Below are positions 44,401-57,558 of a stretch of DNA of 64,000 bases, in pieces. Within the stretch, counting starts at the first letter, position 1. Every line of letters starts with the position of its first letter. The notes beneath the pieces were generated by a model. It did no database searches, was not told the DNA's origin, and saw nothing but the letters and a program-made list of their open reading frames with translations. The stretch comes from Sphingopyxis sp. (GTDB taxonomy: Bacteria; Pseudomonadota; Alphaproteobacteria; Sphingomonadales; Sphingomonadaceae): assembly GCA_016793775.1 (NCBI GenBank), contig JAEULK010000043.1, positions 62,001 through 126,000 on the forward strand, given 5' to 3'. The position numbers and the translations under genes were made by a program.

Positions 44401-46030
44401 CCATCGCGATGGCGGAAACGCCCCGCGCAGACGAGCTTTGCCCGAGGGCGATGGCGTTGTCGGCAATCGCGCTGCTGTTCCGACCCAGCGCGATCGCGTC
44501 CTCTCCGGTCGCCGTCGTCGTGCCGCCGCTGCTGTTGACGCGCAGATATTGGGCGTTGTCGGCGACCGCCTGAACCGCATTGAGCTGGCCCAGATTCACC
44601 GCGTCGCCCAATTGGGTCCCGGCGGCGACGTTGACGATCTGCCGCGAACCGACGGTCGCATTGCCGACCGACACCGTGCCGCCGCGATCGGCAACCGATC
44701 CGGCGCCCAGGGCGACCGCGTTGTTCGCGCCGCCGAGCACCATCGCGCCGTCGCCGAGCGCGGTGCCGTTCGGCGCTACCGCTGACGAATTATTGCCCAA
44801 TGCGACGGTAAAGGTGCCCGAAGCGCGCGACATATAGCCGATCGCCATCGCCGAAAAATTGGTCGATTTGGCTGCCATGCCGATCGCCATGCCATATTGG
44901 CTCGATGCGAAGACGTCGCCCGCACCCGCCGGAGCCGACGTATCGACGCTGCCGATTACCAGCGTGCCATAAGCGTCGCCATGCGCCTTCGTGCCGATGG
45001 TGATCGAGTTTTCGAAACTGTTCCTCGCTTCGTTGCCGATGGCAATGCCGCCACCGCCGATCGATCCCAGTGATGCCTCGGCAAAGCTGCCGATCGCGAT
45101 CGCGCCATCGCCGTCCGCGGCGCTGCTGATACCCAGTGCGACGCTGCCTTGATCCATCGCCTCGGCCTGCGCACCGATGGCGGTAGCGAACACTCCGGTC
45201 GCTTTCGCAAAGCTGCCAAAGGCGACGCTCGATTGGCCGCTCGCTACCGAACTGTTGCCGACGGCGGCCGAATCGGCCGCATCGGCCAACGCACTCGGGC
45301 CGATGGCGGTGGATCGATCGCCACGAACCGTGACCCTCGATCCACCGCCGATCGCGACACCCCCGTCGCCGAACACGCTGCTGTTTGTGCCCATGGATAT
45401 CGCGCTATTCTTGGCCGCCTCCGCATTGGCGCCGACGGCGATCGATCCGATGAGAGCGGCGCGCGCGTTGCTGCCAACCGCGAGGGAGTTCGAGCCGGCC
45501 GCATTCGCATCGGCGCCAAAGGCCGAAGCGCTTTGGCCGACGGCATCGGCGCGCGCGCCGACTGCGGTGGAACTCAGGTTGGTTGCCGTCGTCCCGGTGC
45601 CTATCGCGATGCTGCTGCCGCCCGATGCGGTGGCCTGGAGGCCGATCGCCACGGCGTTCTGATCTTGCGCACTCGCGCGGTCGCCCAAAGCCAAAGCCGA
45701 ATTGCCGGCGGCGTAAGCCTGTTGACCGATGGCGGTGTTGCGCGACGTCAGCGGCACGCCGGTCGCCGGCCCCGTATTGGCGCCGGGTCCGACGGCAATG
45801 TCCTGCGTAGCGGCGGACACCGCCGAGACGCCAACTGCGACCGACTGGGTGCCCTTGGCCGTCGCGCCTGGGCCGCAGACGGTCGCGTCGGTGCCGGTCA
45901 CCGTCCCGGCGGGGGCCTCGGCGGTCGAATCGCACTGCACCTGTTCGGCCAGCGCGGCGCTCGGCAGGAGAAGCGATGCGGCGAGCGCGGCGGGAGCGGC
46001 AGTGAGAAGCAGTTTGGCGGTGTTATGCAT
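41486..46030 (-). CDS. Trimeric autotransporter adhesin (YadA/Hia-like)
   Basis: A 1514-residue surface adhesin. The ATG at 46030 starts a signal peptide (MHNTAKLLLTAAPAALAASL, cleaved near ALAEQ). Residues 30-900 are YadA-head left-handed roll repeats such as NAVALGAGSVADRGG and SVALGRSSEA. Three neck motifs of the type TNVATGTFGTDAVNLDQL are visible. A long coiled coil of 14-residue repeats (TADTALANAATAQG type) follows, then a short second head and a C-terminal membrane anchor (last 75 residues) ending GGRVGVAFGF. It forms trimers on the outer membrane for adhesion or biofilm. Divergent from an ECF sigma gene 82 bp upstream. Coding repeats create large spurious antisense open frames. Confidence 0.94.
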   Translation of the reverse strand: MHNTAKLLLTAAPAALAASLLLPSAALAEQVQCDSTAEAPAGTVTGTDATVCGPGATAKGTQSVAVGVSAVSAATQDIAVGPGANTGPATGVPLTSRNTAIGQQAYAAGNSALALGDRASAQDQNAVAIGLQATASGGSSIAIGTGTTATNLSSTAVGARADAVGQSASAFGADANAAGSNSLAVGSNARAALIGSIAVGANAEAAKNSAISMGTNSSVFGDGGVAIGGGSRVTVRGDRSTAIGPSALADAADSAAVGNSSVASGQSSVAFGSFAKATGVFATAIGAQAEAMDQGSVALGISSAADGDGAIAIGSFAEASLGSIGGGGIAIGNEARNSFENSITIGTKAHGDAYGTLVIGSVDTSAPAGAGDVFASSQYGMAIGMAAKSTNFSAMAIGYMSRASGTFTVALGNNSSAVAPNGTALGDGAMVLGGANNAVALGAGSVADRGGTVSVGNATVGSRQIVNVAAGTQLGDAVNLGQLNAVQAVADNAQYLRVNSSGGTTTATGEDAIALGRNSSAIADNAIALGQSSSARGVSAIAMGADAVASADKGTSLGSESAAGGEDGTAVGYIAFANGVGSVAVGSNSNVIGEQGVAIGQSASSDGANGTAIGGQARANGINATALGNNAVATGINSVALGRSSEAIEDNVVSVGSQFVQRRITNVDTGTAATDAVNVSQLNAAIAGVAAGSNPYVGVGGGGAAAQAMGDGSFAAGGGAQAQSDGSTAIGSGAVAKDGKATSIGFENVASGDGAVAIGDPNVATGTGAVAIGADNSATGTGAIALGNLSVADGESTIALGDRAEARSIHNVAIGSEAKALLAGSVAIGAGAETNGQFSTAIGQLSSANGDFSTAIGRRAEVLGNNSLAIGDFATAIGDNSYALGGDARALASNSVAIGAGSRNGREGTVSVGDVGTERAITNVATGTFGTDAVNLDQLNAALATQTTNVAAAQTTADTALANAATAQGTADTALADAAVAQGTADTALANAATAQGTANSALANAATAQNTADTARTEAAAAQGTANTALANANLALAGNAGNAAAAAAAQNTADNALANAATAQGTADTALANAATAQSTALAAQGTANTALVNAATAQGTANTARLEAANAQATADTARVEAATAQSRADAAFANADAAQATADQALAAGQANAAAAATAQATADTARTEAAAAQAQADTARAEAATAQDRADTAFANAGAAQATANTARTEAAAAQLTATTARSEAAAAQSTANTALANGAYFRANSTGPGPQATGVDSIAVGPGAVASGNQSVAMGANARAINGQAVSIGAGNVASGNGAVAIGDPNIATGIGAVAIGANNNAVGTGAVALGNGSSATGDGSVAIGNGAVASRAGQVALGTTTSTYTLAGVGSAASNAAQTGTLRLLTTDASGNLGTAALDIATLGGIPNRVNLLEQQTAALDARTVVLERHAVQANGGIATAMAMGGTMIVPDSDVSVSFNLATYRGEQGFSGAAVVRLAPRVYVSGGIAGSTVKGSTGGRVGVAFGF
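42300..43200 (-). repeat. Degenerate 42-bp tandem repeats (adhesin coiled-coil stalk)
   Basis: About twenty imperfect units of 42 bp, each encoding two heptads of the form TA(D/N)TALANAATAQ(G/N). The array is Ala/Gln/Thr rich and interrupted by small variants such as LALAGNAGN. It lies inside the adhesin gene, between the third neck and the distal head. Repeat number could change by slippage or recombination without shifting the frame. Confidence 0.85.
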
Positions 46031-46112
46031 GACATATCCCCTTCGTGTCGCCGCGTGGCGCGGCCTTGGCGGTTCGATCGTTCGACCCCGGGCGCCCGCT
46101 CTGTCGGCAGGA

Positions 46113-46769
46113 ATGTCCCATCGCGCGACGACAGCGGAGCTGCGATCGCGCTTGCCAAAGCCTTGGCCCGCCCTCATAAAATCCGGCGACCAAAGTGGTT
46201 GGCAAAAGGTAAGACGGGAAAAGTCGATCGAACCGGACACGCCCCCTCAAGAAAAATTTCCGGGGGGTGCCGATGCGCTGGTCGCGGCCCTTTATGATGA
46301 GCTGCGGACGATCGCGCGGCGCGAGCATTATCGCGCCGGCGGGCCGCAGACCTTGCAGACGACGGCGCTGATCAACGAGGCCTATGTAAAGCTCCGCCGC
46401 GCCGACGGTTGGGAAAGCCAGTCGCATTTCCTGGCCTGCGCCGCGACCGCGATGCGGCATATCCTGATCGACGCGGCGCGGGCGCGGCTGGCGTCGAAGC
46501 GCGGCGGCGCGGGCGACTATAGCTTTACCCAGAGCCTCGATTCACTCGCCGCCGCGGTGCCCGAAGACGAGCAGGTGCTGAAGCTCGGCGACGCGCTCGA
46601 GGGACTCAAACGCCTCGATGCCAATCTGGCGCAGGTCGTCGATTGCCGCTTCTTCGCAGGGATGGACGAGCGCGAGACCGCCGATGTGCTGGGTGTCACC
46701 GACCGCACCGTGCGCCGCTGGTGGGTGCAGGCGCGCGCGTGGATCCACCAAGAGATGGCGGCGGCTTAG
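46113..46769 (+). CDS. ECF RNA polymerase sigma factor (kinase-associated type) 2
   Basis: An ECF sigma factor of up to 218 residues. Region 2 has LYDELRTIARREHYRAG, LQTTALINEAYVKLRRADG and FLACAATAMRHILIDAARAR; region 4 has QVVDCRFFAGMDERETADVL and VTDRTVRRWWVQARAWIHQEM. The start is uncertain: ATG at 46113 gives an unusual N-terminal extension, TTG at 46152 is an alternative, and the conserved part begins near 46260. It is divergent from the giant adhesin gene and converges on a Ser/Thr kinase gene 9 bp away, mirroring the pair at 26411-29493. It probably controls the adhesin (inference). Confidence 0.85.
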   Translation: MSHRATTAELRSRLPKPWPALIKSGDQSGWQKVRREKSIEPDTPPQEKFPGGADALVAALYDELRTIARREHYRAGGPQTLQTTALINEAYVKLRRADGWESQSHFLACAATAMRHILIDAARARLASKRGGAGDYSFTQSLDSLAAAVPEDEQVLKLGDALEGLKRLDANLAQVVDCRFFAGMDERETADVLGVTDRTVRRWWVQARAWIHQEMAAA

Positions 46770-46778
46770 AGGGGGGCG

Positions 46779-49214
46779 CTATCCCGCCGCGGCGACCCGA
46801 GCGCGCAGCGCGGCAGCAGATTTGAGGTAGGATTCGCCGCCGGGCCCAGCTTGGCGGAAGACCTTTTCGGCGGCGTCGATTTCCTTGCGCGCTTCAGCGA
46901 TCCGGCCCTGTTTCAGGCGCAGGACGGCGCGGGCGCGGCCCAGCACGGCGGCGGGCAGGCCGGGCGGCAGCGCGTCGAACAGCGGTTGCAGCTGGACAAT
47001 CAGCGTCTGGGCCCCGGCGATGTCGCCGGTTTCGGCGCGGGCTTCGGCAAGCGATGCGCCGATGATGATTGTCGGCATGGCCTTGATCCCCAGATTTTCG
47101 GCGGCCATCGGATAGGCTTCTTCGAGCGCCTTGCGCGCGTCGGCATATTGGCCGAGCGGAATCTGGGCGCGGCTCAATTGCACGAGATCGACCGCAAGGC
47201 CCGCCGATTCGCCGAGCGTCGCCCGGCGCCGGGCAACGATCCCGCGGAGCAGCGGCTCGGCCTCGGCGGGTTTGCCGAGCCGGATCAGGCGCAGCGCCTT
47301 CAACTGCCGTATATTGAGGTCGGACGCGCTGTTCTTTTCGTCCGACCGGGCGATCAGCGCATCGGCACGCGCGAAGATCGGCGGCATCGCATCGAGCTGG
47401 CTGGTCTCGATCATATAGACGAGGATGTTGTTGTAGATGGCGATGACGTCGCGGTGGTTTTCCTTCCACACCACCTCGGCATCGGGGAGGGTCGAAATGA
47501 GGAGGGCGATCGCCTCCTCTGTCTTCCCAGTCCGGCGCATATATTGCGCCTGCGCCTGTTTCAGCTCGACGATCTCCAAGCGATAGCGGACCGGATCGGG
47601 GCTGAACACACGTTCGGCATAAGCGAGCAGTGCCGGCATTTCGTCGGTGTTGCCGATCACGGCGGCGGAGGCGGCCTTTTTGACCATGAGATTGGCAGTT
47701 GCGGCCGGGCTGTCGCTGCCGACGCCGCGTTCGAGCGCGCGGCTGACGAGCGCATAGGAGCCGGCATTGTCCTCCAGATTGACGTAAAGATTGAACAGCG
47801 TGCCGACGAGCACGGCCGACTCCTCGCTATGGTCGAGCGAATTGGCGAGTTTGTCGGCGGTGTGGTCGAGCATCTGCTTGACCGTCGCGGTCTGGCCCTC
47901 GTCGGTGGCGGCGGTGTCGCGCAGCATCACGGTGAGCAGGCGGTTGATCGCCTCCGACCTTTTGGCCTCGGCCAAGGCGGCGTCGCGTTCGATCGCGGTC
48001 GCGCGCGCCTGCCATGCGATGCCGCCGGCCCCGACGAGCAGCGCGGCGAGCACGGCGGCGGTCGCGGCGACGCCCCAGCGGTAGCGGCGGAGGAAGCGCC
48101 CGGCCATATAGCGGGTCGATCCTTCGCGCGCCTGCACCGGGAGGAATTGCTGATGGCGCGCGACATCCTCGGCCAGCGCGCTGACGCTCAGATAGCGTTC
48201 GGCAGGATTGCGCCGCATCGCCTTCATCACGATCGCGTCGAGGTCGCCGCCGATCTTGCTCGCCGGGACCGGCGTTGCGCCCCCAGCCGCCGCGCGGCTG
48301 GGGAGGGCGGCGTCTTCGTACAAGACGCGGCGGATCATCGCGGGAACCGACGATTTTTCACCCCGCCAGGGACTCTTGCCGCTCACCAACTCATAGAGCA
48401 CGACGCCGAGCGCATAGACGTCGGTCGACACCGTCGCTTCGTCGCCGTCGAGCTGTTCGGGCGCGGCATAATCGGGGGTGAGCATCGCCTGCGTCGTCGC
48501 GGGCAGCGCGGCGCTGTCGTCGAGCAACTTGCCGATCCCGAAATCGACGAGGCGCGGCTTGCCCGCGGGATCGATCAGGATGTTCGACGGCTTGATATCG
48601 CGGTGCACGACCAGATTGGCATGGGCATAGGCGACGGCGTCGCAGGTCTCGCGAAACAGCTTGAGCCGCGTGTCGAGGTCGGCGGCATGGCTGCGGCACC
48701 AGGCGTCGATGGGTTCGCCGTCGACATAGTCCATGACGATATAGGGCCGCCCGTCGGGGGCGACCCCCGCGTCGATCAGCCGCGCGATGCCGGGATGGTC
48801 GAGCCGCGCGAGCAGCCGCCGTTCGCGCGCGAAACTCTCGGCGCGCTCGGCGGCATCGACGCGCAGTAACTTGAGCGCGACCTTTTGGTCGAAATCGGCT
48901 CCGGCGCGGCGCGCGAGATAGACTTCGCCGAGGCCGCCGCGGCCGATCAGCCGGTCGATCGTGAAACCACCGACATCCTGCCCCGATGCGAGCGAGGTAT
49001 AGGTTGCGGGTCCCGCGTCACCGAGCGGCGGCGGGTTCATGTCGAGAATGCCTTCGCTCCGCGACGCGGTCAGCAGGCCGCGGACCGCGCCGAGGATTTC
49101 GGGCGACAGCGTCGAGCGCGTCAGTCGCTGGGTCTGGGTATCGGGGGGCAGGTCGACCAATTCGTCGAACAGCGCCTGGATGGCTTGCCAATCGTCCCGG
49201 TCGAGTGCGGCCAT
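46779..49214 (-). CDS. Hanks-type Ser/Thr protein kinase with TM and TPR-like C-terminal domain
   Basis: An 811-residue transmembrane kinase. The ATG at 49214 follows GGGGGACAATGAC; TTG at 49229 is an alternative. Kinase domain: GRGGLGEVYLARR (91-103), Lys115, HRDIKPSN (204-211), DFG (224-226), YAAPEQLDG. A transmembrane segment (VAATAAVLAALLVGAGGIAW) is near residues 390-410, and the C-terminal half is helical and TPR-like (for example LRLIRLGKPAEAEPLLRGIV). The catalytic residues are complete. It converges on the ECF sigma gene, the arrangement of kinases thought to govern ECF43-type sigma factors by phosphorylation. Confidence 0.9.
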   Translation of the reverse strand: MAALDRDDWQAIQALFDELVDLPPDTQTQRLTRSTLSPEILGAVRGLLTASRSEGILDMNPPPLGDAGPATYTSLASGQDVGGFTIDRLIGRGGLGEVYLARRAGADFDQKVALKLLRVDAAERAESFARERRLLARLDHPGIARLIDAGVAPDGRPYIVMDYVDGEPIDAWCRSHAADLDTRLKLFRETCDAVAYAHANLVVHRDIKPSNILIDPAGKPRLVDFGIGKLLDDSAALPATTQAMLTPDYAAPEQLDGDEATVSTDVYALGVVLYELVSGKSPWRGEKSSVPAMIRRVLYEDAALPSRAAAGGATPVPASKIGGDLDAIVMKAMRRNPAERYLSVSALAEDVARHQQFLPVQAREGSTRYMAGRFLRRYRWGVAATAAVLAALLVGAGGIAWQARATAIERDAALAEAKRSEAINRLLTVMLRDTAATDEGQTATVKQMLDHTADKLANSLDHSEESAVLVGTLFNLYVNLEDNAGSYALVSRALERGVGSDSPAATANLMVKKAASAAVIGNTDEMPALLAYAERVFSPDPVRYRLEIVELKQAQAQYMRRTGKTEEAIALLISTLPDAEVVWKENHRDVIAIYNNILVYMIETSQLDAMPPIFARADALIARSDEKNSASDLNIRQLKALRLIRLGKPAEAEPLLRGIVARRRATLGESAGLAVDLVQLSRAQIPLGQYADARKALEEAYPMAAENLGIKAMPTIIIGASLAEARAETGDIAGAQTLIVQLQPLFDALPPGLPAAVLGRARAVLRLKQGRIAEARKEIDAAEKVFRQAGPGGESYLKSAAALRARVAAAG

Positions 49215-49263
49215 GTCATTGTCCCCCAAGGATTATGGGTAAAGCAAAGGCCGCTTCGGTCAA

Positions 49264-50592
49264 TTAATGTTTGTCCAGTGAGCCTCGCGCAATTCCCGCG
49301 ACCCCGTGCCGCGATACGGCGCCGTTGATCGTGCTTGCGTCCCGCCGGAGCAGTGCGGCGTGAGTAGCGGCCGCCAACGGCACGTCGGCGGGCGGGTCGG
49401 CGGGAACTATCTCGCCAGCCATGAACAGCGCGTCCAGGGCGTTGAACAGATCGGCTTGGCCAATGTCGCACACGGCCGTCAGCGGTTGCGGTCCGTTTTC
49501 GAGCGTTTTGACGATGGCGCGCGCGGCATCATTGTCGAAGCGGATCGTGCCGGCCGCGGTGCGCGCCTCGAAACAGGCTTCGTTGGCCGGGCGTATCGCC
49601 GACCACCATCCTCGCATACGCGCCTCGGCCTGCGCGGTTCGCGAAAGCCGCGCGAAAGGCTGCTTGACGAACAGATCGGTGCGGAACCAGTTTCGCGTCA
49701 GCAGGTCGACCGCGCTTTCGCGAGCGGCCGGGTTGACGATCGTCGCCAGCGTGTCTCGCCACGCTGCTTTCAGCGCAAAATCGGCGCGGAGGCGGTTGGC
49801 CCGCGCTTGCCCCGCCAGCGTCAGCCCGCGTGCCGCCGCGGCCTCCAGAACCGCGCCCGACCAGAGCGGACTCCAATGGCGATTGAGATATTCATGCGCG
49901 AAATAATCGGTCGGCAACGTCGCGCGCAGTCCGTCGATCCATTCCCATTGGCTGGTCTCGAATATCCCAGTCGCGCGCAGCTGTTCGAGCGCCGTTTCAA
50001 ACCGCTGGGTCGGCGTACCAGGCAAGCCGTCCGCCAGCGTCCACAGCATCTGCTGGAACGCAACCATCGGCGTCCAGCCGGGCAGGCAATTATAGCCGAC
50101 GGCGAACACGCCGCCGGGTTTCAGCATATGCGCGGCAAGATCGAGGACATGGGTGCGATTGGTCTCGCTGACCCACGCCAATACGCCCTGGCATTGGACA
50201 TAGTCCGCCACGGCGCCGGGCACGGCGGCCAGCGCGGCGTCGAAATATTGATGGTGGAATGCGATATTATCGAGGCCGATTTCGACCGCGATCGCGGTAC
50301 CGCGCGCGACATGGTCCGGGTTGCCGTCGATGCCGATGAAATGCCCCTCGGGGTGCGCGGCGGCGTTGAGGATCAGCCCGACGCCGTCGCCGCAGCCGAT
50401 ATCGGCCATCGTGAAGGGCGCACGCGTAGCATGGCCGCGCGGCGACGCGATCCCGGCATGGACCAGCATCGCGTCGATATTAGGCGGCGCGAAGTTCGGA
50501 TGGAAGCTGCTGGGATAGAGCGAGTCGCCGACATAGCCGTCGATGCTCTGCGATGCCGCGGTTCGATCCATCTCGCCGTCGCTTCGTGCCAT
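49264..50592 (-). CDS. SAM methyltransferase with methyltransferase regulatory domain (PKMT-like)
   Basis: A 442-residue protein with an N-terminal class I SAM fold (motif I MADIGCGDGVGL near residue 65, GIDGNPDHV motif II) and a large C-terminal region containing ARMRGWWSAIRPANEACFEA and a winged-helix-like end. This two-part layout with a methyltransferase regulatory domain is that of Rickettsia protein-lysine methyltransferases that modify the OmpB autotransporter. Starts at 50592 or 50571 are both possible. It begins 26 bp after the stop of the 64-residue double-glycine peptide gene and is read with it, so that peptide is the prime candidate substrate. The NHLM-like exporter is divergent from this pair. 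Confidence 0.8.
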   Translation of the reverse strand: MARSDGEMDRTAASQSIDGYVGDSLYPSSFHPNFAPPNIDAMLVHAGIASPRGHATRAPFTMADIGCGDGVGLILNAAAHPEGHFIGIDGNPDHVARGTAIAVEIGLDNIAFHHQYFDAALAAVPGAVADYVQCQGVLAWVSETNRTHVLDLAAHMLKPGGVFAVGYNCLPGWTPMVAFQQMLWTLADGLPGTPTQRFETALEQLRATGIFETSQWEWIDGLRATLPTDYFAHEYLNRHWSPLWSGAVLEAAAARGLTLAGQARANRLRADFALKAAWRDTLATIVNPAARESAVDLLTRNWFRTDLFVKQPFARLSRTAQAEARMRGWWSAIRPANEACFEARTAAGTIRFDNDAARAIVKTLENGPQPLTAVCDIGQADLFNALDALFMAGEIVPADPPADVPLAAATHAALLRRDASTINGAVSRHGVAGIARGSLDKH

Positions 50593-50618
50593 GCTCGTCG
50601 CCGCCCCCAGCTACGCCG

Positions 50619-50813
50619 TCACAGCTTCACCGGCGTATATATTTTTGCGGTCGTGGGCGAGAGCTTCACCTCATTGACCTTCTGGACGACGTTGCCGAAG
50701 TCGGGGTCGAGCTTGATATAGGTCGGACCCGCGCCGCCCGACGCCCGATCGAGCGCGTCTTCGCTGAGTTCGACGGCGCCGGCCTTGGTCACATTGTCGG
50801 TATTCCTGGTCAT
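50619..50813 (-). CDS. Double-glycine leader peptide precursor 1
   Basis: A 64-residue peptide. The leader (1-27) contains VELSEDALDRASGG, a classic double-glycine processing site with hydrophobic and acidic spacing, so the C39 peptidase transporter at 52279 should cut after Gly27. The 37-residue core begins AGPTYIKLDPDFGNVV and has lysines at 34, 45, 50, 57 and 63, no cysteine and few Ser/Thr, so lanthionine or thiazole formation is unlikely. GAGGAGAA precedes the ATG. A methyltransferase gene follows 26 bp downstream. I do not recognise the core family; role as bacteriocin, signal or structural peptide is open. Confidence 0.8.
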   Translation of the reverse strand: MTRNTDNVTKAGAVELSEDALDRASGGAGPTYIKLDPDFGNVVQKVNEVKLSPTTAKIYTPVKL

Positions 50814-50870
50814 CGCAATTCTCCTCGCAGCGCCGCGAAGAGGCGGCGGATCGACAGGTTGCGGCCCGAA

Positions 50871-50888
50871 TCGGACTATCCTGTCCGA
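50871..50888. promoter_or_regulatory. CGGAC-N6-GTCCG inverted repeat before precursor 1
   Basis: Arms TCGGAC and GTCCGA around 6 bases, 58 bp before the precursor 1 start and in the 223-bp region shared with the divergent exporter operon. The same CGGAC-N6-GTCCGA pattern occurs at 57576-57592 before precursor 2. The rest of this gap shows no other gene. Confidence 0.55.
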
Positions 50889-51036
50889 CGGCCCCCTGCA
50901 TAACCGATTCGGCGCCCGATGGTGTGGCCCCAGTCACAGCGGCGCCGACGCCCTTGTCACAGCAGGGGAAATCGGTTCATGTGCGCGGACAAAATAATAT
51001 TGGTCGCGCGCGCATGGCAGCAGGGGCAGCACGCGG

Positions 51037-52275
51037 ATGAGCGAAACCATCTATCGCCAGACGGCACTGGATCGCATGGCGAATCCGGAGCGGCTCGACG
51101 CCCCGCTGGCGCTGGTGCCGCGCCCTTCGTGGATATTGCTCGGCGCCTTTGCCGTCGCGCTGGTCGCGGGACTGGTCTGGGCGAGCGTCGCGCGGGCGCC
51201 GGTAACCGTGGGCGCGAGCGGGATCTTGATCAACCGCTCAGGCCTCGCAGAGATCGCCGCGGCGCAGGATGGCCGTATCCAGACGATGCTCGTCATTCCC
51301 GGCGACGCGGTGCGCATCGGCCAGCCGATCGCGACCATCGCCCGCACCGAACTCACCCGCGAACTCGCCGATGCCCGCATCGACCTGCGCGACGCCCAGG
51401 CGCGGCTGGCGCGGTTGCAGGGCTTTTATGGCGAGCAGGGCGGGCGCGAGCGGGGCGCCGACAGCGCCCGGCTCGCGACGATTTCCGAGAGTCGCCGCGC
51501 GCTCCTGAGCCGCGAGACCTATCTCGAGCAGCGCGCGGCGCGGATGGCGAAGCTGATCGAGCGCGGCTTCATCACCCAGGATCAGCTGGTCGATGTGCAG
51601 ATCGAGCTCGCGGCGGTGCGCGAGCAATTGTCGAACCTCAGCGAAGCGGCGCTGCGCGTGCGCATCGACGCCGACAAACGATCGGGCACCAGCGGACTCG
51701 CGCTGCTCGACGAACAGCGCGCGGTCGATACCCAGCGGCGGCTGATCGAGCGGCTCGAAGCGCGGCTCGGCGACGAGGAGGTCATCCGTGCCACCGTCGC
51801 GGGACGCGTCACCGAGGTCAAGCTGGGCAGCGGCGACATCGTCGGCCCCGGCACAGCGCTGGCGACCGTCGCGCCCAACCAGGGCGGGCTGGTGGCTTTG
51901 CTTTATGTGCCCGCCAGCGAAGGGAAGCGGATCGCGCCGGGCATGCGGGCAGAGGTCACCCCGACCGCGGTCGAGCGCGCGGTCTATGGCCATATCCGCG
52001 GCCGCGTCGCGTCGGTCGCGCCGCTGCCCGCGACCCCCGAAGGCATGCGGCGCATGCTGCGCAACGACCAGCTGGTGGCCGAACTCAACGCGCGCGGCGC
52101 GCCGATCGAGGTGCGGATATTGCTCGACCGCGACGCCGCCACGGCCAGCGGCTTTGCCTGGTCGGCGTCGAAAGGACCGCCGGGCGCGATCAGCGCGGGG
52201 TCGATCGTCGCCGGCCGCGTCGTCGTCGCCGACCGGCGCATCATCGGACTGCTCGTGCCGGGGGCGGGCGACTAG
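51037..52275 (+). CDS. HlyD-family secretion protein, NHLM-like peptide exporter
   Basis: A 412-residue adaptor: cytoplasmic N-terminus, one transmembrane helix (SWILLGAFAVALVAGLVWASVA, about residues 31-52), lipoyl halves near 75-105 (LAEIAAAQDGRIQTMLVIPG) and 245-275 (RATVAGRVTEVKLGSGDIVG), coiled-coil hairpin between, and a beta-barrel end. Shape and partners match the NHLM bacteriocin system secretion protein family. It starts the exporter operon: the two ABC genes follow at 3 bp and a 4-bp overlap. It would link the peptidase transporter across the periplasm. Confidence 0.9.
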   Translation: MSETIYRQTALDRMANPERLDAPLALVPRPSWILLGAFAVALVAGLVWASVARAPVTVGASGILINRSGLAEIAAAQDGRIQTMLVIPGDAVRIGQPIATIARTELTRELADARIDLRDAQARLARLQGFYGEQGGRERGADSARLATISESRRALLSRETYLEQRAARMAKLIERGFITQDQLVDVQIELAAVREQLSNLSEAALRVRIDADKRSGTSGLALLDEQRAVDTQRRLIERLEARLGDEEVIRATVAGRVTEVKLGSGDIVGPGTALATVAPNQGGLVALLYVPASEGKRIAPGMRAEVTPTAVERAVYGHIRGRVASVAPLPATPEGMRRMLRNDQLVAELNARGAPIEVRILLDRDAATASGFAWSASKGPPGAISAGSIVAGRVVVADRRIIGLLVPGAGD

Positions 52276-52278
52276 CGA

Positions 52279-54417
52279 ATGGCCCGGCGCCGATCCACGC
52301 CCACGGTGCTCCAGCTCGAGGCCGCCGAATGCGGGGCGGCGTCGCTGGCGATGATCCTCGCCGCGCACGGGCGCCACATGGGGCTGGACGAATTGCGCGC
52401 GCTGTGCGGCGTGTCGCGCGACGGGACCAAGGCGTCGAGCCTGCTGCGCGCCGCGCGCTCGCTGGGGCTGGAGGCCAAGGGGCTGAAGGCCGAGCCCGAG
52501 CATATCGCCGACCTGCCGCTGCCGGCGATCGCCTTTGTCCATTTCAACCATTTCCTCGTCGTCGACCATATCGACGCGCGCCACGTCTGGCTCAACGATC
52601 CGGCTTCGGGGCGGCGCCGCGAGACGATCGCCGAATTCTCCGAGGGCTTTACCGGGGTCGTGCTGACCTTCGTCCCCGGCGCCGACTTCGTTCCGGGCGA
52701 CAGCCGCCCCAGCCTGGCGCAGTCGCTGCGCCAGCGGTTCGACGACGTCCGCACCGCGCTGTGGTTCGTGGTCCTGACCGCGTTGGCGCTGGTGGTGCCG
52801 GGGATTGTGCTGCCGGTGTTCAGCCGCATCTTCGTCGATTATGTGCTGGTCAGGAACCTGTCCGACTGGTTGCTGCCGCTGCTGATCGGCATGGCGCTGA
52901 CCGCGCTCGTCCGCTTCATCCTGCTCGAACTCCAGGAACGCGCGCTGCTCCGCGCGCGCATGGCGATGAGCCTCAATACGGGCGGCGCGCTGATGCGCAA
53001 GCTGCTGACCTTGCCGGTGGCCTTTTTCGACCAGCGCTTCGCGGGCGAGATCGCCGACCGGGTGCGGCTCAACGAAGCGCTGGCGACGCTGCTGACTGGC
53101 CAGTTGGCACAGGCGGCGGTCAATCTGGTCAGCGCGCTCTTCTTCCTGATCGTGCTGCTTTTCTATCATTGGGCGCTGACGCTGGCGATCGCGGCGCTGG
53201 CGCTGCTCAACGCGGCGGTGCTGCTCCTGTCGAACCGGCTGCTGTCCGACCGCTATCGCAAGATTTCGATCGATCGCGGCAAACTCGCCGGCGCGCGCGT
53301 CGCGGGGCTCAAGGACATGGAGACCTTCAAGGCGTCGGGCGGCGAGGACATGTTGTTCGCCCGCTGGACCGGGCTGACGATCGCAGTGCAGAACGGCCAG
53401 CAGCAAGTCGCGCGGCTCGCTGCCTTCGTCCAGCCGATGCCGGGCCTGATCTCGGCGCTGATAACCACGACCATTTTGGTGTGGGGCGGCTTTGCGGTGA
53501 TGGGCGGGATGATGACGCTGGGCGAGCTGGTCGGCTATCAGACACTGGCGGCGAGCTTCGTCGCGCCGGTCGCGGCGCTGGCGGGCTTCGGGGCCGAACT
53601 GCACCAGATCCGTTCCTACACCGGACGGCTCGACGATGTGCTGGCCGAGGCGAGCGACCCGCGTTTTGATCGCCCCGACCCAAGTTCCGACGGGCGGCTG
53701 CCGCAGGGCGCGGTCAGCATCCGCGATTTGTCTTTTGGTTATGCGCCGCTCGACCCGCCGCTGATCGACGGGCTGAGCTTCGACCTTCATCCCGGCGAAC
53801 GCATCGCGCTGGTCGGGCCGTCGGGGTCGGGCAAGTCGACCGTCGGCAAGCTGATCGCCGGGCTGGAGCAGCCGCGCGGCGGCGAGTTGCTGCTCGACGG
53901 CCGTGCTTTGCTCGACTGGCCGCGCGCCGCGCTCGCGCACCGGCTGGCTTATGTGCGTCAGGATGTGATGCTGTTCGAGGGGACGGTGCGCGACAATCTG
54001 ACCCTGTGGAACGAGGCGCTGCCCGAACCCGACATGATCCGGGCGGCGCGCGATGCGATGATCCACGACATCATCGCCGCGCGACCCGGCGGCTACGATG
54101 CGCCGATCGCGCAAGGCGGCGGTAATTTTTCGGGCGGCGAGCGGCAGCGCATGGAAATCGCGCGCGCGCTGGCCAGCGATCCCAGCCTGATCGTCCTCGA
54201 CGAGGCGACCAGCGCGCTCGATCCGGTTACCGAACATGGCGTGATGGAGGCGATCCGGCGGCGCGGCATCAGCTGCATCATCATCGCGCACCGGCTGTCC
54301 GCGATCCGCGATTGCGACCGCATCTTCGTGCTCGAACAGGGACGGGTGGTAGAGGTGGGCGACCATGGCGAACTAATGGCCGGGCGCGGCGTCTATGCCC
54401 GGTTGGTCGAGGCGTGA
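52279..54417 (+). CDS. C39 peptidase-containing ABC transporter (NHLM-like ABC1)
   Basis: A 712-residue bifunctional peptidase/exporter. The N-terminal C39 peptidase has a full triad: Cys18 in LEAAECGAASLAM, His91 in HFNHFLVVD and Asp107 in LNDPASG, so it should cleave double-glycine leaders. Five or six transmembrane helices follow (about 160-430), then the ATPase with Walker A GPSGSGKST, signature FSGGERQRMEIARAL and Walker B LIVLDEATSALD. Architecture and the paired second ABC gene match NHLM bacteriocin ABC1. Two genes encoding double-glycine peptides flank the operon and are its likely cargo. Confidence 0.93.
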   Translation: MARRRSTPTVLQLEAAECGAASLAMILAAHGRHMGLDELRALCGVSRDGTKASSLLRAARSLGLEAKGLKAEPEHIADLPLPAIAFVHFNHFLVVDHIDARHVWLNDPASGRRRETIAEFSEGFTGVVLTFVPGADFVPGDSRPSLAQSLRQRFDDVRTALWFVVLTALALVVPGIVLPVFSRIFVDYVLVRNLSDWLLPLLIGMALTALVRFILLELQERALLRARMAMSLNTGGALMRKLLTLPVAFFDQRFAGEIADRVRLNEALATLLTGQLAQAAVNLVSALFFLIVLLFYHWALTLAIAALALLNAAVLLLSNRLLSDRYRKISIDRGKLAGARVAGLKDMETFKASGGEDMLFARWTGLTIAVQNGQQQVARLAAFVQPMPGLISALITTTILVWGGFAVMGGMMTLGELVGYQTLAASFVAPVAALAGFGAELHQIRSYTGRLDDVLAEASDPRFDRPDPSSDGRLPQGAVSIRDLSFGYAPLDPPLIDGLSFDLHPGERIALVGPSGSGKSTVGKLIAGLEQPRGGELLLDGRALLDWPRAALAHRLAYVRQDVMLFEGTVRDNLTLWNEALPEPDMIRAARDAMIHDIIAARPGGYDAPIAQGGGNFSGGERQRMEIARALASDPSLIVLDEATSALDPVTEHGVMEAIRRRGISCIIIAHRLSAIRDCDRIFVLEQGRVVEVGDHGELMAGRGVYARLVEA

Positions 54418-56795
54418 CGGACACGATCGCCTTGCCCGCGGGCGCGACCCGGAAGCTGCCGCACGGCGGCACCGGCTGGCGCATCGCGGCGGGTCGGCTC
54501 GAACTCCATCTGGTGACCGCCGAGCGGAGGCGCTTCGTCGATCTGGTCGAGACGGGCGGGCAGGTTGCACCGCTGCCCGAAGGTGCACGCTGCTTCCTCG
54601 TCGTCGCGCTCGACGATTGCAGCCTGGCGCCGCTCGCCGCCGGTACGTTCGACGACGGTGATGCCGGCGCCGCCCTCGACGCCCGTTTCGCTGCGGAAGC
54701 GGCGCAGCGCGATGCGTCGCTGATCGATCGCCTCGGCGCAGGGCCGCCCGACGGGGCCGAGGGCAATCGGTTGGCGCAGGCATTCGCCGCGCTCGGCGAA
54801 GCACTGGGGCATGCGGTCGATCCGGCTATCTTTCGCGGCGCGTGCATGGACTTCGCCCAGGCGCCTGTGCTCGCCCGCACCGCCGGGCTGCGCGCCGGGC
54901 GGACGATCCTGGCGCCGGGCTGGTGGAAAGACGATGCCGGCCCGATGCTCGTGCAGCGCGGCGAGGGTGATGTCAGCGCCGCGCTTTGGCAGCGGGGTGC
55001 CTATCGCGACGCCGATGGCATTCCGCTCGATGCGGGCGAGGTGCAACCTTTGTGCTGGCGCGTCTATGCGCCGCTTGCCGGCGACCTGTCGGCGTTCCGC
55101 CCGATGGCGGCGAGCGTCGCCGTCGGCATAAGGCGCGAATGGCCGCTGATTGCGGGCGCGGGACTTGGCGCGGCGCTGCTCGGGCTGATGGTGCCACTCG
55201 CCACCGCGTGGATTTTCGACGAAATCGTCCCCGGCGGCGCCGACGGATTGCTGATCGGTGTCGGCGTCGCGCTCGTCGTCGCGGCGCTGGTCGGTGCCGC
55301 CTTCACCGTCGTGCGGACGCTGGCGATTGCGCGCGTCACCGGGCGCGGGCAGGTCGCGATGGCGGCCGGGGTGACCGACCGGGTGCTGCGGCTGCCCGCG
55401 CGCTTCTTCAAGACTTTGTCGCCGGGCGATTTCAATCAGCGGATCGAGGCGTTGGAGGGCATCCGCGGACTTATCGCCGCCATCCTGCTCAGCGCCGGGC
55501 TGACCGCCTTTTTTTCGCTCTTCTACCTCGTGCTGCTGTTCCTCTACGAACCGCGCATGGCGCTCGCGGGGCTGAGCGTCACGCTCGTCTATATCGGCGC
55601 GGTGGCGGCCAGTCGGGTCGCGCAGGCGGCGCCGCTGCGCGAGGCCGCCGGACGCGACGGCAAACTGGCGGGCCTGACCTTCGAGATATTGGAGGGCCTG
55701 CCCAAACTGCGTTCCGCGGCGGCCGAGGATCGCATGCTGGCGCGCTGGACGCAGGCCTACGCCCTCGAACGCGCCGCCGATGCGCGCGGCCAGCGGATCG
55801 GCATCCATTTCGGTGCTTTTTCCGACGCCTGGGGGATCATCGGACTGATCGCGCTGTTCGCGACAGCGGCGCTACTTGTGTCTGGCGACGTGCCACCGGG
55901 ACAGTTCATCGGCTTCCTTGCCGCTTTCGCGATCTTTCAGGGCAGCCTCGTCTCGCTATGCGATTCCTTGCTCGCCATCTATACCGCGCGTCCGCTGGCC
56001 GAACGCGCGCGGCCGATTCTGACCGCCGAACTCGAGGCGGCGGGAGGGCGCGCCGATCCGGGACGGCTGACGGGTGACATCCAGGTGGCGGGACTCAGCT
56101 TCGGTTACGACCAGGCGATGGCGCCGTTGCTCGCCGACCTGTCGTTGAGCGTCGCACCCGGCGAGCATGTCGCAATCGTCGGCGGGTCGGGGTCGGGCAA
56201 ATCGACCGTGCTGCGGCTGCTGCTCGGTTTCGAGGCTCCGGCGACCGGCTCGATTGCCTATGACGGGCAGGAACTCGCCAGCCTCGATCCGGCGCGGCTG
56301 CGCAGTCAGATCGGCGTCGTGCTCCAGTCGAGCCAGTTGTTCGCGGGCACGATCATGGAGAATATCCGCGGCGCCAGCGATGCCGGGCTGGAGCAATGCC
56401 AGACGGCGGCCGAGGCGGCGGGGCTGGCGGGCGATTTGGCGCTGATGCCGATGGGGCTGCACACGATGGTCACCGAAGGCGCCGGCACGCTGTCGGGTGG
56501 GCAGCGCCAGCGCGTCCTGATCGCCCGCGCGCTCGCCGGGCGGCCGCGCATCCTGTTCTTCGACGAGGCGACGAGCGCGCTCGACAATGCGACGCAGGCG
56601 ATCGTCGCCACGACGCTCGATGGACTCGACGCGAGCCGCATCACGATCGCCCACCGCCTGTCGACGGTGCGTAACGCCGACCGCATCTGCGTGCTCGAAC
56701 GCGGGCGCTTCGTCGAGACGGGCACATTCGCCGAACTCATGGCGCAGAACGGCGCTTTTGCGGCGCTCGCGCGCCGCCAGTTGCTGGAGAACTGA
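54414..56795 (+). CDS. Second ABC transporter of the peptide exporter (NHLM-like ABC2)
   Basis: A 793-residue ABC protein. The GTG start overlaps the previous stop (GTGA). The first 270 residues are a non-peptidase domain, partly beta-rich (WRIAAGRLELHLVTAERRRF) as in NHLM ABC2 proteins, where it resembles a degenerate regulatory domain. A membrane domain (about 275-560) precedes the ATPase with Walker A GGSGSGKST, signature LSGGQRQRVLIARAL and Walker B ILFFDEATSALDN. It has no C39 triad, so it probably pairs with ABC1 as a heterodimer or regulates it. It is followed by a cyclic-nucleotide-binding protein gene 1 bp away. Confidence 0.9.
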   Translation: MTDTIALPAGATRKLPHGGTGWRIAAGRLELHLVTAERRRFVDLVETGGQVAPLPEGARCFLVVALDDCSLAPLAAGTFDDGDAGAALDARFAAEAAQRDASLIDRLGAGPPDGAEGNRLAQAFAALGEALGHAVDPAIFRGACMDFAQAPVLARTAGLRAGRTILAPGWWKDDAGPMLVQRGEGDVSAALWQRGAYRDADGIPLDAGEVQPLCWRVYAPLAGDLSAFRPMAASVAVGIRREWPLIAGAGLGAALLGLMVPLATAWIFDEIVPGGADGLLIGVGVALVVAALVGAAFTVVRTLAIARVTGRGQVAMAAGVTDRVLRLPARFFKTLSPGDFNQRIEALEGIRGLIAAILLSAGLTAFFSLFYLVLLFLYEPRMALAGLSVTLVYIGAVAASRVAQAAPLREAAGRDGKLAGLTFEILEGLPKLRSAAAEDRMLARWTQAYALERAADARGQRIGIHFGAFSDAWGIIGLIALFATAALLVSGDVPPGQFIGFLAAFAIFQGSLVSLCDSLLAIYTARPLAERARPILTAELEAAGGRADPGRLTGDIQVAGLSFGYDQAMAPLLADLSLSVAPGEHVAIVGGSGSGKSTVLRLLLGFEAPATGSIAYDGQELASLDPARLRSQIGVVLQSSQLFAGTIMENIRGASDAGLEQCQTAAEAAGLAGDLALMPMGLHTMVTEGAGTLSGGQRQRVLIARALAGRPRILFFDEATSALDNATQAIVATTLDGLDASRITIAHRLSTVRNADRICVLERGRFVETGTFAELMAQNGAFAALARRQLLEN

Positions 56796-56796
56796 T

Positions 56797-57303
56797 ATGC
56801 GCAAGGCGCTCTATATCCTGGGCGATCTGGAGGACAGCGACATCCTCTGGCTGTCGCGCCACGGCAGTGTCCGCAGCCTTGCGCCGGACGAGGTGCTGAT
56901 CCGTGCGGGGCAAGCACTCGGCGAATTGTTCTTCGTTACCGACGGAACGCTGACGGTGACCAGCCCGGCGGGCGCCCATGTCGCCGATCTCGCGCTCGGA
57001 GACGTGGTCGGCGAAATGTCCTTCGTGGAAAAGGCGCTGCCGTCGGCGACGGTGACCGCGCGCGACCATGCCAGGGTACTCGCGGTGCCGCGCGCAGCGA
57101 TCCTCGCCGAATTCGCGGTCGATAGCGGCTTCGCGGCGCGCTTCTATCGCGCGCTCGCGGTGTTCCTGTCCGACCGGCTACGCAGCCTGTCGATCCCGAC
57201 AGGGGGGCAGGCCGAACTCGACGAGGGCCTGCTCGACACGATCAGCGAGGCGGGCGATCGCTTCGTTCGCCTGATCGCCTTGCTCGAAGGGCGCGAGCAT
57301 TAG
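56797..57303 (+). CDS. Cyclic-nucleotide-binding domain protein (no DNA-binding domain)
   Basis: A 168-residue protein. Residues about 15-115 form a cNMP-binding beta roll: VLIRAGQALGELFFVTDGTLTV, then DVVGEMSFVEKALPSATVTA with the GE-S and PSAT phosphate-cassette-like residues. The C-terminal 50 residues are helical, and no Crp-type helix-turn-helix is present. It starts 1 bp after the second ABC gene, so it belongs to the exporter operon and may gate transport in response to cAMP or c-di-GMP (inference). Such solitary cNMP domains occur in NHLM-type clusters. Confidence 0.85.
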   Translation: MRKALYILGDLEDSDILWLSRHGSVRSLAPDEVLIRAGQALGELFFVTDGTLTVTSPAGAHVADLALGDVVGEMSFVEKALPSATVTARDHARVLAVPRAAILAEFAVDSGFAARFYRALAVFLSDRLRSLSIPTGGQAELDEGLLDTISEAGDRFVRLIALLEGREH

Positions 57304-57317
57304 GTTTGGCTTCGGGG

Positions 57318-57329
57318 GCGGGCGCCCGC
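57318..57329. terminator. GC palindrome between convergent exporter and precursor 2 genes
   Basis: GCGGGCGCCCGC, a perfect 12-bp palindrome in the 30-bp gap between the cNMP-protein stop and the precursor 2 stop. There is no loop or T tract, so any terminator role is weak. Confidence 0.25.
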
Positions 57330-57333
57330 GTAT

Positions 57334-57558
57334 TTAACCGCCGACGATGGGCTTCACCGATCCGTCGTCGGGCATCACCGATCCATCACCCGGCTTTACC
57401 GACCCGTCGCCGGCTTTCACCGATCCGTCCGCCATCGCCGTGTTGACGCTGATCCGGCGCGCGGCCTCGCGCGCGGCCTGTATGGCGGGCAGTCCGCCGC
57501 TGACGTCGTCGAGGGCTTCGTCGCTGATCGCTTCGGCGGCCTGTTTTTTGTCGCTCAT
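57334..57558 (-). CDS. Double-glycine leader peptide precursor 2 with DGSV heptad repeats
   Basis: A 74-residue peptide. The leader (1-22) has EAISDEALDDVSGG, nearly the same leader signature as precursor 1, for cutting after Gly22. The core starts LPAIQAAREAARRISV (a short amphipathic helix) and then has four 7-residue units DGSVKAG, DGSVKPG, DGSVMPD and DGSVKPI (residues 44-71), ending VGG. No cysteine is present. It is convergent with the exporter operon at the opposite end from precursor 1. The ATG at 57558 follows a GAGACGGACA leader. The repeat family is not one I recognise. Confidence 0.8.
   Translation of the reverse strand: MSDKKQAAEAISDEALDDVSGGLPAIQAAREAARRISVNTAMADGSVKAGDGSVKPGDGSVMPDDGSVKPIVGG
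57349..57429 (-). repeat. 21-bp tandem repeats in precursor 2
   Basis: Almost four units of 21 bp coding DGSV(K/M)(A/P)(G/D). Synonymous differences between units, while the protein repeat is kept, suggest the sequence is selected at protein level. Confidence 0.8.

Follow-up and report, generated by a model that had tools for sequence, protein, structure and literature searches.

A PKMT-like methyltransferase paired with lysine-motif double-glycine precursors at an NHLM-type peptide export operon of Sphingopyxis sp.

The window, a stretch of 64,000 nucleotides from Sphingopyxis sp. (assembly GCA_016793775.1, contig JAEULK010000043.1, positions 62,001 to 126,000), carries at its positions 49264-57558 a peptide exporter operon, two small genes for double-glycine (GG) precursors named P1 and P2, and a gene for a methyltransferase (MT) resembling protein lysine methyltransferases (PKMTs). 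The operon lies on the plus strand with P1 and P2 on the minus strand, one on either side, and is tightly packed, with intergenic gaps of 3, -4 and 1 bp. It encodes an HlyD-type adaptor (51037..52275; NHLM_micro_HlyD, TIGR03794, 258.4 bits against a cut-off of 156.2), a C39 peptidase/ABC exporter, ABC1 (52279..54417; NHLM_micro_ABC1, TIGR03796, 905 bits against 853.3), a second ABC transporter, ABC2 (54414..56795, from a GTG start picked by us), whose best family was NHLM_micro_ABC2 (TIGR03797) at 674.6 bits, 5% under the cut-off of 709.4, and a cNMP-domain protein (56797..57303) matching part of the TIGR03896 model at 107.5 bits, below its cut-off of 161.05. Judged by these models the exporter is NHLM-type. 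An earlier note, made from the letters of this DNA, had given the same gene positions, all of which were confirmed by open reading frames, Pfam and NCBIfam; it had also called the exporter NHLM-like, and the hidden Markov model searches it proposed agree, with two models passing and ABC2 just under. The Cys18, His91 and Asp107 it had described as intact in ABC1 were invariant across an alignment of three proteins (A1). Its statement that no YcaO or lanthipeptide enzyme is present was borne out by PF02624 (YcaO) and PF05147 (LanC), which had no match in the genome of the window (96% complete), while the positive controls of these searches matched in 5 and 1 of 14 named genomes; membership in the thiazole/oxazole-modified microcin (TOMM) or lanthipeptide systems was rejected on this result.

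P1 (50619..50813, minus strand) is a 64-residue precursor recognized by its reading frame, a leader model and the lysine-motif test described below. Its 27-residue leader (50733..50813) ends in ELSEDALDRASGG and is followed by the lysine-motif core (A)GPTYIKLDPDFGNVVQKVNEVKLSPTTAKIYTPVKL; the cut was placed after GGA by the pattern used, and a cut after GG leaves one extra Ala. P2 (57334..57558, minus strand; 74 residues) has a 22-residue leader (57493..57558), likewise identified by sequence and alignment, that ends with GG in AISDEALDDVSGG, and a DUF1559/H-X9-DG-like core starting with LPAIQAAREAARR and containing four DGSV repeats. The leader model, built on 44 precursors from eight loci, scored P1 at 3.8e-11 and P2 at 5.1e-8, both being members of its training set. 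A third precursor of the same genome, absent from the training set, was detected at 6.5e-7 (L185:4776-4973, minus strand of contig C93), and a fourth (L185:5207-5440, plus strand) was found beside it by eye, not by the model. On these sequences the likeness between the leaders of P1 and P2 is not a matter of chance.

Neither P1 nor P2 matched NHLP or Nif11 at E<=1; among the 44 precursors a single Nif11 match was seen (E 0.1), and NHLP was not among the 25 families shown of the 30 that matched. NHLP/Nif11 leader membership was rejected accordingly, as the earlier note had expected. Matches to bacteriocin_sig were found in 27/44 and to the CTB family in 24/44 precursors (E<=1; best 3.1e-6), indicating that the leader type is not new; P1 and P2 reached 12.2 and 12.9 bits with CTB family model NF038167, both under its cut-off of 32. 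The proposal of an undescribed, cysteine-free peptide class made in that note therefore survives in part: the leaders are outside NHLP and Nif11 and 43 of the 44 curated cores lack cysteine, but the leader itself belongs to a known type.

The MT gene (49264..50592, minus strand; 442 aa) lies downstream of P1 at a spacing of 26 bp, and its product has the PKMT layout, a class I S-adenosylmethionine (SAM, AdoMet)-dependent MT domain followed by the regulatory domain PF10119 (55.3 bits, gathering score 25.5), as had been noted before. A profile search of the PDB with METHYLTRANSFERASE retrieved Rickettsia PKMT2 (5doo, 5.6e-35) and PKMT1 (5dnk, 2.4e-30), and a seven-row MT profile gave 6.9e-41 and 8.6e-35 for the same two proteins. 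In a Foldseek search with the AlphaFold model (mean pLDDT 73), PKMT2/PKMT1 were again the best matches (4e-17), followed by the lysine methyltransferase Rv2067c; the TM-scores of these alignments were about 0.43-0.54 with rmsd of 8-11, so that the domain arrangement is uncertain. The Asp corresponding to the AdoMet-contacting D102 of RpPKMT1 was kept in 7/7 MT relatives compared, while the position of its second AdoMet contact, H146, holds Gln or Asn in them. The window MT is thus PKMT-like in sequence and modelled fold, with the Rickettsia protein lysine methyltransferases as its nearest solved relatives and a predicted activity of that kind. The gene is not widespread in the genus, being absent at E<=1e-70 from all 10 same-genus genomes listed besides the window's; 5/397 family genomes have it, the window's own included.

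Close relatives of ABC1 were rare, with matches at E<=1e-180 in 4/249 family genomes; the window's own genome is among the four, and one of the four matches is just 44% identical. A scan of named genomes with the ABC1 alignment kept the best 80 of 138 relatives. Seven loci at 58% identity or more on long enough contigs were compared: the window, L020 (Parasphingopyxis marina GrpM-11, one contig with L031 and counted once), L021 (G243), L028 (contig G296:C133, counted once with G296), L029 (Novosphingobium sp. PC22D), L032 and L038 (a Sphingorhabdus metagenome-assembled genome); L030, L033 and L034, where no precursor was seen, were left out because their contigs are 4-7 kb. GG precursors were found near the exporter in 6/7 loci, with 10 in L020, 11 each in L021 and L032, 4 in L038, 1 in L029 and 2 in the window. 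The genome of L028 carries an MT and four GG precursors on contig C146 and more leader matches on other contigs. Consistent absence of the small genes, which the earlier note had named as an outcome that would count against it, was hence not found; the island described there is real, and what it had overlooked are the arrays of precursors, the lysine motif and the mosaic make-up of the cores. In four array loci, a protein of ~360 aa is encoded between the precursors and HlyD (L020:15563-16657, L021:12661-13734, L032:7536-8609 and L038:3688-4809), with a weak PF04371 (peptidyl-arginine deiminase) match in two of them (0.0047 and 0.23); a second modification enzyme for Arg-rich cores is possible. 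In P. marina, a radical SAM/SPASM protein (L188:3513-5020; Radical_SAM 1.2e-9, SPASM 1.7e-5) follows an orphan precursor with the same leader.

The close MTs, defined as that of the window and five further ones of at least 41% identity (L131 55%, L020 49%, L038 47%, L022 45% and L029 42%), pair with lysine-motif precursors. A GG precursor was located within 2 kb of the MT in 5/6 of them (window, L020, L029, L038 and L131) and in 1/32 distinct places with distant MTs of 25-34% identity (L004-L015, L111 and L112-L130), the one being L139 (the same as L117; G475, another family). The leader model used for this count includes the L139 precursor, and most distant loci hold ~1.5 kb on each side of the MT, which makes 2 kb an upper bound there. 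The sixth close MT, L022 (G191), is preceded by two tandem small proteins (L022:7990-8974) with Sec-like signals as judged by eye; the second is Lys-rich, with 15 Lys and 5 hydrophobic-K-hydrophobic sites, and was counted as linked. The first has stretches similar to P2 (GDGSVKPG) and to the orphan core L192. No NHLM ABC1 was found at 1e-100 in G191 or in G346, a genome whose distant MT is without a precursor.

The nine MT-linked cores from six loci contain 45 Lys in 320 residues. A Y[LI][KR][hydrophobic] motif within 6 residues of the cut was present in 7/9 of these cores versus 0/35 others (Fisher 9e-7), and 62% versus 21% of their lysines were followed by a hydrophobic residue (Fisher 3.6e-7). 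Hydrophobic-K-hydrophobic sites numbered 18 in the MT-linked cores versus 4.6 in shuffles (p 2e-4), and 6 versus 7.3 in the 35 other cores. The lysine idea preceded the retrieval of L131 and L139, each of which then showed one precursor with a Y-x-K start; none of the ten other loci retrieved together with them had a GG precursor within 2 kb of the MT.

The cores themselves resemble mosaics. Among 57 cores (44 curated and 13 orphans), an ungapped segment scoring at least 30 was common to 190 pairs versus 52-63 in six shuffles, and 37 cores had distinct segments in common with partners that share none between themselves, versus 9-15 in shuffles; the excess includes plain orthology between loci. 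Pfam searches of 43 cores at E<=0.1 returned eCIS_core (extracellular contractile injection system, eCIS) in four, DUF4438 in two, and gp19 tail tube, Hcp, PG_binding_3, ferredoxin transit peptide and Peptidase_M60 in one each. The eCIS_core matches scored 27.4, 23.4, 21.7 and 17.5 bits (cut-off 22; best 4e-6), with a fifth core at E 0.17. For gp19, two cores (E 0.016 and 0.26) aligned with one and the same part of the profile; Hcp matches were at E 0.037 and 0.17 and PG_binding_3 at 0.021, and no core reached the Hcp (PF05638) gathering score of 23.5, the best having 14.7 bits. NCBIfam gave a single phage tail match among the precursors (TIGR02241, 0.019). The orphan core L186 matched DUF1559 (PF07596) at 1.1e-7 (32.6 bits, cut-off 23.3; profile positions 1-25) and has an LPA[IV]Q-AAREAAR segment in common with P2, which itself passed the TIGR04294 (H-X9-DG) cut-off (20.7 versus 19 bits) and had no PF07596 match at E<=1. 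The orphan L192 resembled the DUF1559 C-terminus (E 0.11), and sub-cut-off FG-GAP matches were seen in L187 (0.095) and in the fourth precursor of the window's genome (0.026). The cores thus appear to be assembled from a pool of modules, in which the DUF1559 and eCIS core segments are clear and those of Hcp, tail tube and FG-GAP less sure. In the window's genome, one eCIS_core match covering nearly the whole model was observed in a 628-aa frame (L150; G000:C59:25899-26117); at E<=0.001 none was found in G195 and G296, and the sole match in G243 is a precursor peptide.

When compared with four Hcp proteins, 8/43 cores were at p<=0.05 in a shuffling test, and with random panels of real proteins as the reference 12/57 were at p<=0.05 and 7/57 at p<=0.01 (0.6 expected). 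The clearest likenesses were YIKFEGIDGES in a core versus YMKYEGIDGEA, and PTENFSLNYEKIKF versus PSESFSLNFTDIEY; P1 itself had no significant match to Hcp (p 0.29). The MT family reaches the type VI secretion system (T6SS) too: 3 of the 20 class-level places listed, window included, have a PKMT-like MT directly beyond TssG (L135:9019-10713, L138:9256-10773 and L141:9494-11056), and a VipB-like gene adjoins the MT in L134. An Hcp gene was observed ~6 kb from the MT in L135. A Y-x-K start is common to the MT-linked cores and Hcp; taken with the occurrence of MT relatives in T6SS clusters, this suggests a strand of that kind as the feature recognised by the enzyme, and Hcp methylation by the T6SS-cluster MTs is possible. 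A search for Hcp in six genomes of the window's family (G000, G195, G243, G296, G191 and G346) had no match at E<=0.001. Downstream of the window MT, by 34 bp, lies a gene for a Ser/Thr kinase with TPR (46779..49229, minus strand; Pfam), possibly co-transcribed with the MT; a related kinase follows the MT in the T6SS locus L141 and sits beside it in L138, and none was among the called MT neighbours in L020, L029, L038, L131 and L139.

The most likely route is one in which the adjacent PKMT-like enzyme would methylate lysines of the P1 core in the cytoplasm, the likeliest sites being the Y-I-K-L lysine just past GG and the other lysines flanked by hydrophobic residues. The C39 domain of ABC1 would next cleave P1 after Gly-Gly, and the HlyD/ABC1/ABC2 exporter would secrete the core; P2 would leave by the same exporter, unmethylated. 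With moderate confidence, we consider P1 and its relatives to be exported-peptide precursors of this kind; the genes, their leader family, the exporter class and the pairing of close MTs with lysine-motif precursors are established, and methylation, cleavage, export and any activity are inferred. The secreted peptides may act as bacteriocins, signals or decoys of extracellular machines. Several observations weigh against this assignment. A precursor within 2 kb was missing for 31/32 distant members of the MT family, and the pairing therefore characterises one subgroup and L139 rather than the family as a whole. The choice of motifs followed inspection of the window, L020, L029, L038 and L022, and the p-values overstate independence because the nine peptides are related to one another. 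In one linked core R replaces K, 2/9 lack the Y-x-K start, and a precursor of L131 that lies downstream of the MT (12531) was scored as unlinked. No exporter of the NHLM class was found in the retrieved neighbourhoods of L131 and L139; the G296 exporter sits on another contig than the MT, and G475 offers nothing closer than a C39 transporter that falls short of the cut-off (480 bits against 853). The position of H146, a His that binds AdoMet in RpPKMT1 according to the available part of PMC11784438, is occupied by Gln in 6 and Asn in 1 of the 7 relatives.

If the place of the MT beside P1 were incidental, its substrate might be a large surface protein, for which the methylation of the adhesin AtaA by KmtA provides a precedent (available part of PMC11784438). 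The window offers a YadA-type autotransporter (41486-46240) with 34 YadA_head stretches in Pfam, and among the distant MTs, that of L133 has a DUF4214 protein nearby, that of L142 a 2885-aa frame and an ABC gene, and that of L025 ABC/HlyD genes. The window adhesin, however, has just 12 Lys in 1584 aa and was rejected as the main MT substrate; a simple count of head motifs gave no more than 2 for any protein of L020, L029, L038, L131, L139 and L022, against 29 in the window adhesin used as control, and the GG precursor within 2 kb of five of the six close MTs also speaks against a surface substrate, which we regard as very unlikely. An ordinary class II-type double-glycine bacteriocin island, with P1 and P2 as unmodified antibacterials and the MT acting elsewhere or tuning production, would fit the intact C39 exporter, the weak leader matches to bacteriocin_sig and CTB families, and the orphan precursors matching ComC, Bacteriocin_IIc or L_biotic_typeA. 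It is unlikely, given that the lysine-motif enrichment is restricted to MT-linked precursors and that the cores, polar mosaics containing segments from other families, differ from the hydrophobic helices of class II bacteriocins.

As for these segments, the similarity that they show with DUF1559, eCIS core, Hcp and tube segments could come from convergence on favourable short motifs and mean nothing functionally. The single matches are mostly short and marginal (0.005-0.3), and equally strong Pfam matches point elsewhere, as with DUF4438, Peptidase_M60 and the ferredoxin transit peptide. PDB sequence searches with five core profiles and three single cores gave no match to these families, the nearest being a neutral protease sharing an HELTH motif (E 0.5); a link through PDB sequences was rejected, the matches being unrelated, at chance level or zero, and the likeness therefore rests on Pfam/NCBIfam, the Hcp panels and the shared segments. 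In tblastn searches against plasmids, 3/5 cores had no match, the fourth found six records at E 4-7, including a Nostoc 'phage tail protein', and the fifth a Borrelia hypothetical protein (0.03) and a Mameliella protein (9). Convergence is nevertheless doubtful, although it keeps an appreciable chance: DUF1559 and, in two cores, eCIS_core pass the Pfam gathering scores and P2 passes TIGR04294, one shuffle per core matched four unrelated families singly and none of those named, the two gp19 matches coincide on the profile, and Hcp was matched well above expectation against the real-protein panels. Among other candidate resemblances, ELFGAY(N) cores as a tube N-terminus were rejected, since they match DUF4438 at 0.052 or nothing. 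For the motif [FY]IGETEKNL, which we take to be an AAA+ look-alike, no model match was shown, and the core L032:6154, with QYNPET[IV] as a presumed look-alike of a contractile injection system (CIS) LysM protein, matched no family.

A wider possibility is a combinatorial export system, in which cores built from short modules taken from the extracellular machines of other bacteria (prepilin-like DUF1559, Hcp/CIS tube, eCIS core, FG-GAP adhesins), some of them PKMT-methylated, would be released as assembly decoys or ligands against the appendages and injection devices of competitors by producers in which no Hcp was found; we think this improbable. Were mosaic cores to mimic parts of appendages or injection tubes, a new principle of interbacterial interference would follow, and mimicry aside, the precursor cores appear to combine pieces that can be traced to protein families unrelated to one another. 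Should P1 receive lysine methylation ahead of its export, an enzyme family linked so far, in the available part of PMC11784438, with large surface proteins would have a peptide among its substrates, and P1 would offer a model of 64 residues for settling PKMT specificity, for which that part reports no consensus. The presence of the same enzyme family beside TssG in T6SS clusters would make Hcp methylation a direct question. Exporter, leader type and enzyme family are already known (PMC2887384 and PMC11784438, as far as their available parts show). A literature search found no account of the exporter/leader/MT combination or of cores from other families' pieces, a result that does not prove absence in print; no publications were found joining NHLM with methyltransferase, double-glycine leader with contractile injection system, DUF1559 with leader peptide, or Hcp with decoy and inhibitor peptide, and results for Hcp with lysine methyltransferase, for lysine N-methyltransferase with ribosomally synthesized and post-translationally modified peptide (RiPP), and for 'methyltransferase regulatory domain' looked unrelated.

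Among known systems, those exporting NHLP/Nif11 precursors (Haft, Basu and Mitchell 2010, PMC2887384, available part) have the same exporter trio, TIGR03794/TIGR03796/TIGR03797, the last of them just under its cut-off in the window, and share a conserved leader, hypervariable cores and many precursors per genome; here, however, the leaders are short, acidic GG leaders not derived from nitrile hydratase or Nif11, and a PKMT-like MT stands in place of YcaO and LanC. The nearest solved relatives of the MT, Rickettsia PKMT1/PKMT2, belong with Acinetobacter KmtA to the outer-membrane protein lysine methyltransferases, whose known substrates are described in the available part of PMC11784438 as exported surface proteins methylated at many lysines, namely giant adhesins or OmpB, whereas the neighbour of the window MT is a 64-aa precursor; the window MT also differs by the change of the AdoMet-binding His to Gln and by its 442 aa, compared with 535 and 554 in the PDB chains. 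The CTB family and double-glycine bacteriocins (NF038167, TIGR01847) have the E-L-x-E-x-E-L-D-x-V-x-GG leader and C39 exporter seen here, with P1 and P2 remaining below the curated score of NF038167. P2 is like DUF1559 (PF07596) proteins with an H-X9-DG C-terminus in matching the C-terminal model and in the segment shared with L186, and unlike them in carrying short segments only, behind a GG leader. With Hcp, cores in L131, L021, L032 and L020 match N-terminal, middle or C-terminal strands, and distant relatives of the MT lie within T6SS clusters next to TssG; the cores differ from Hcp in being 22-56 aa long, scoring below its gathering score and coming from a family in which six genomes searched had no Hcp.

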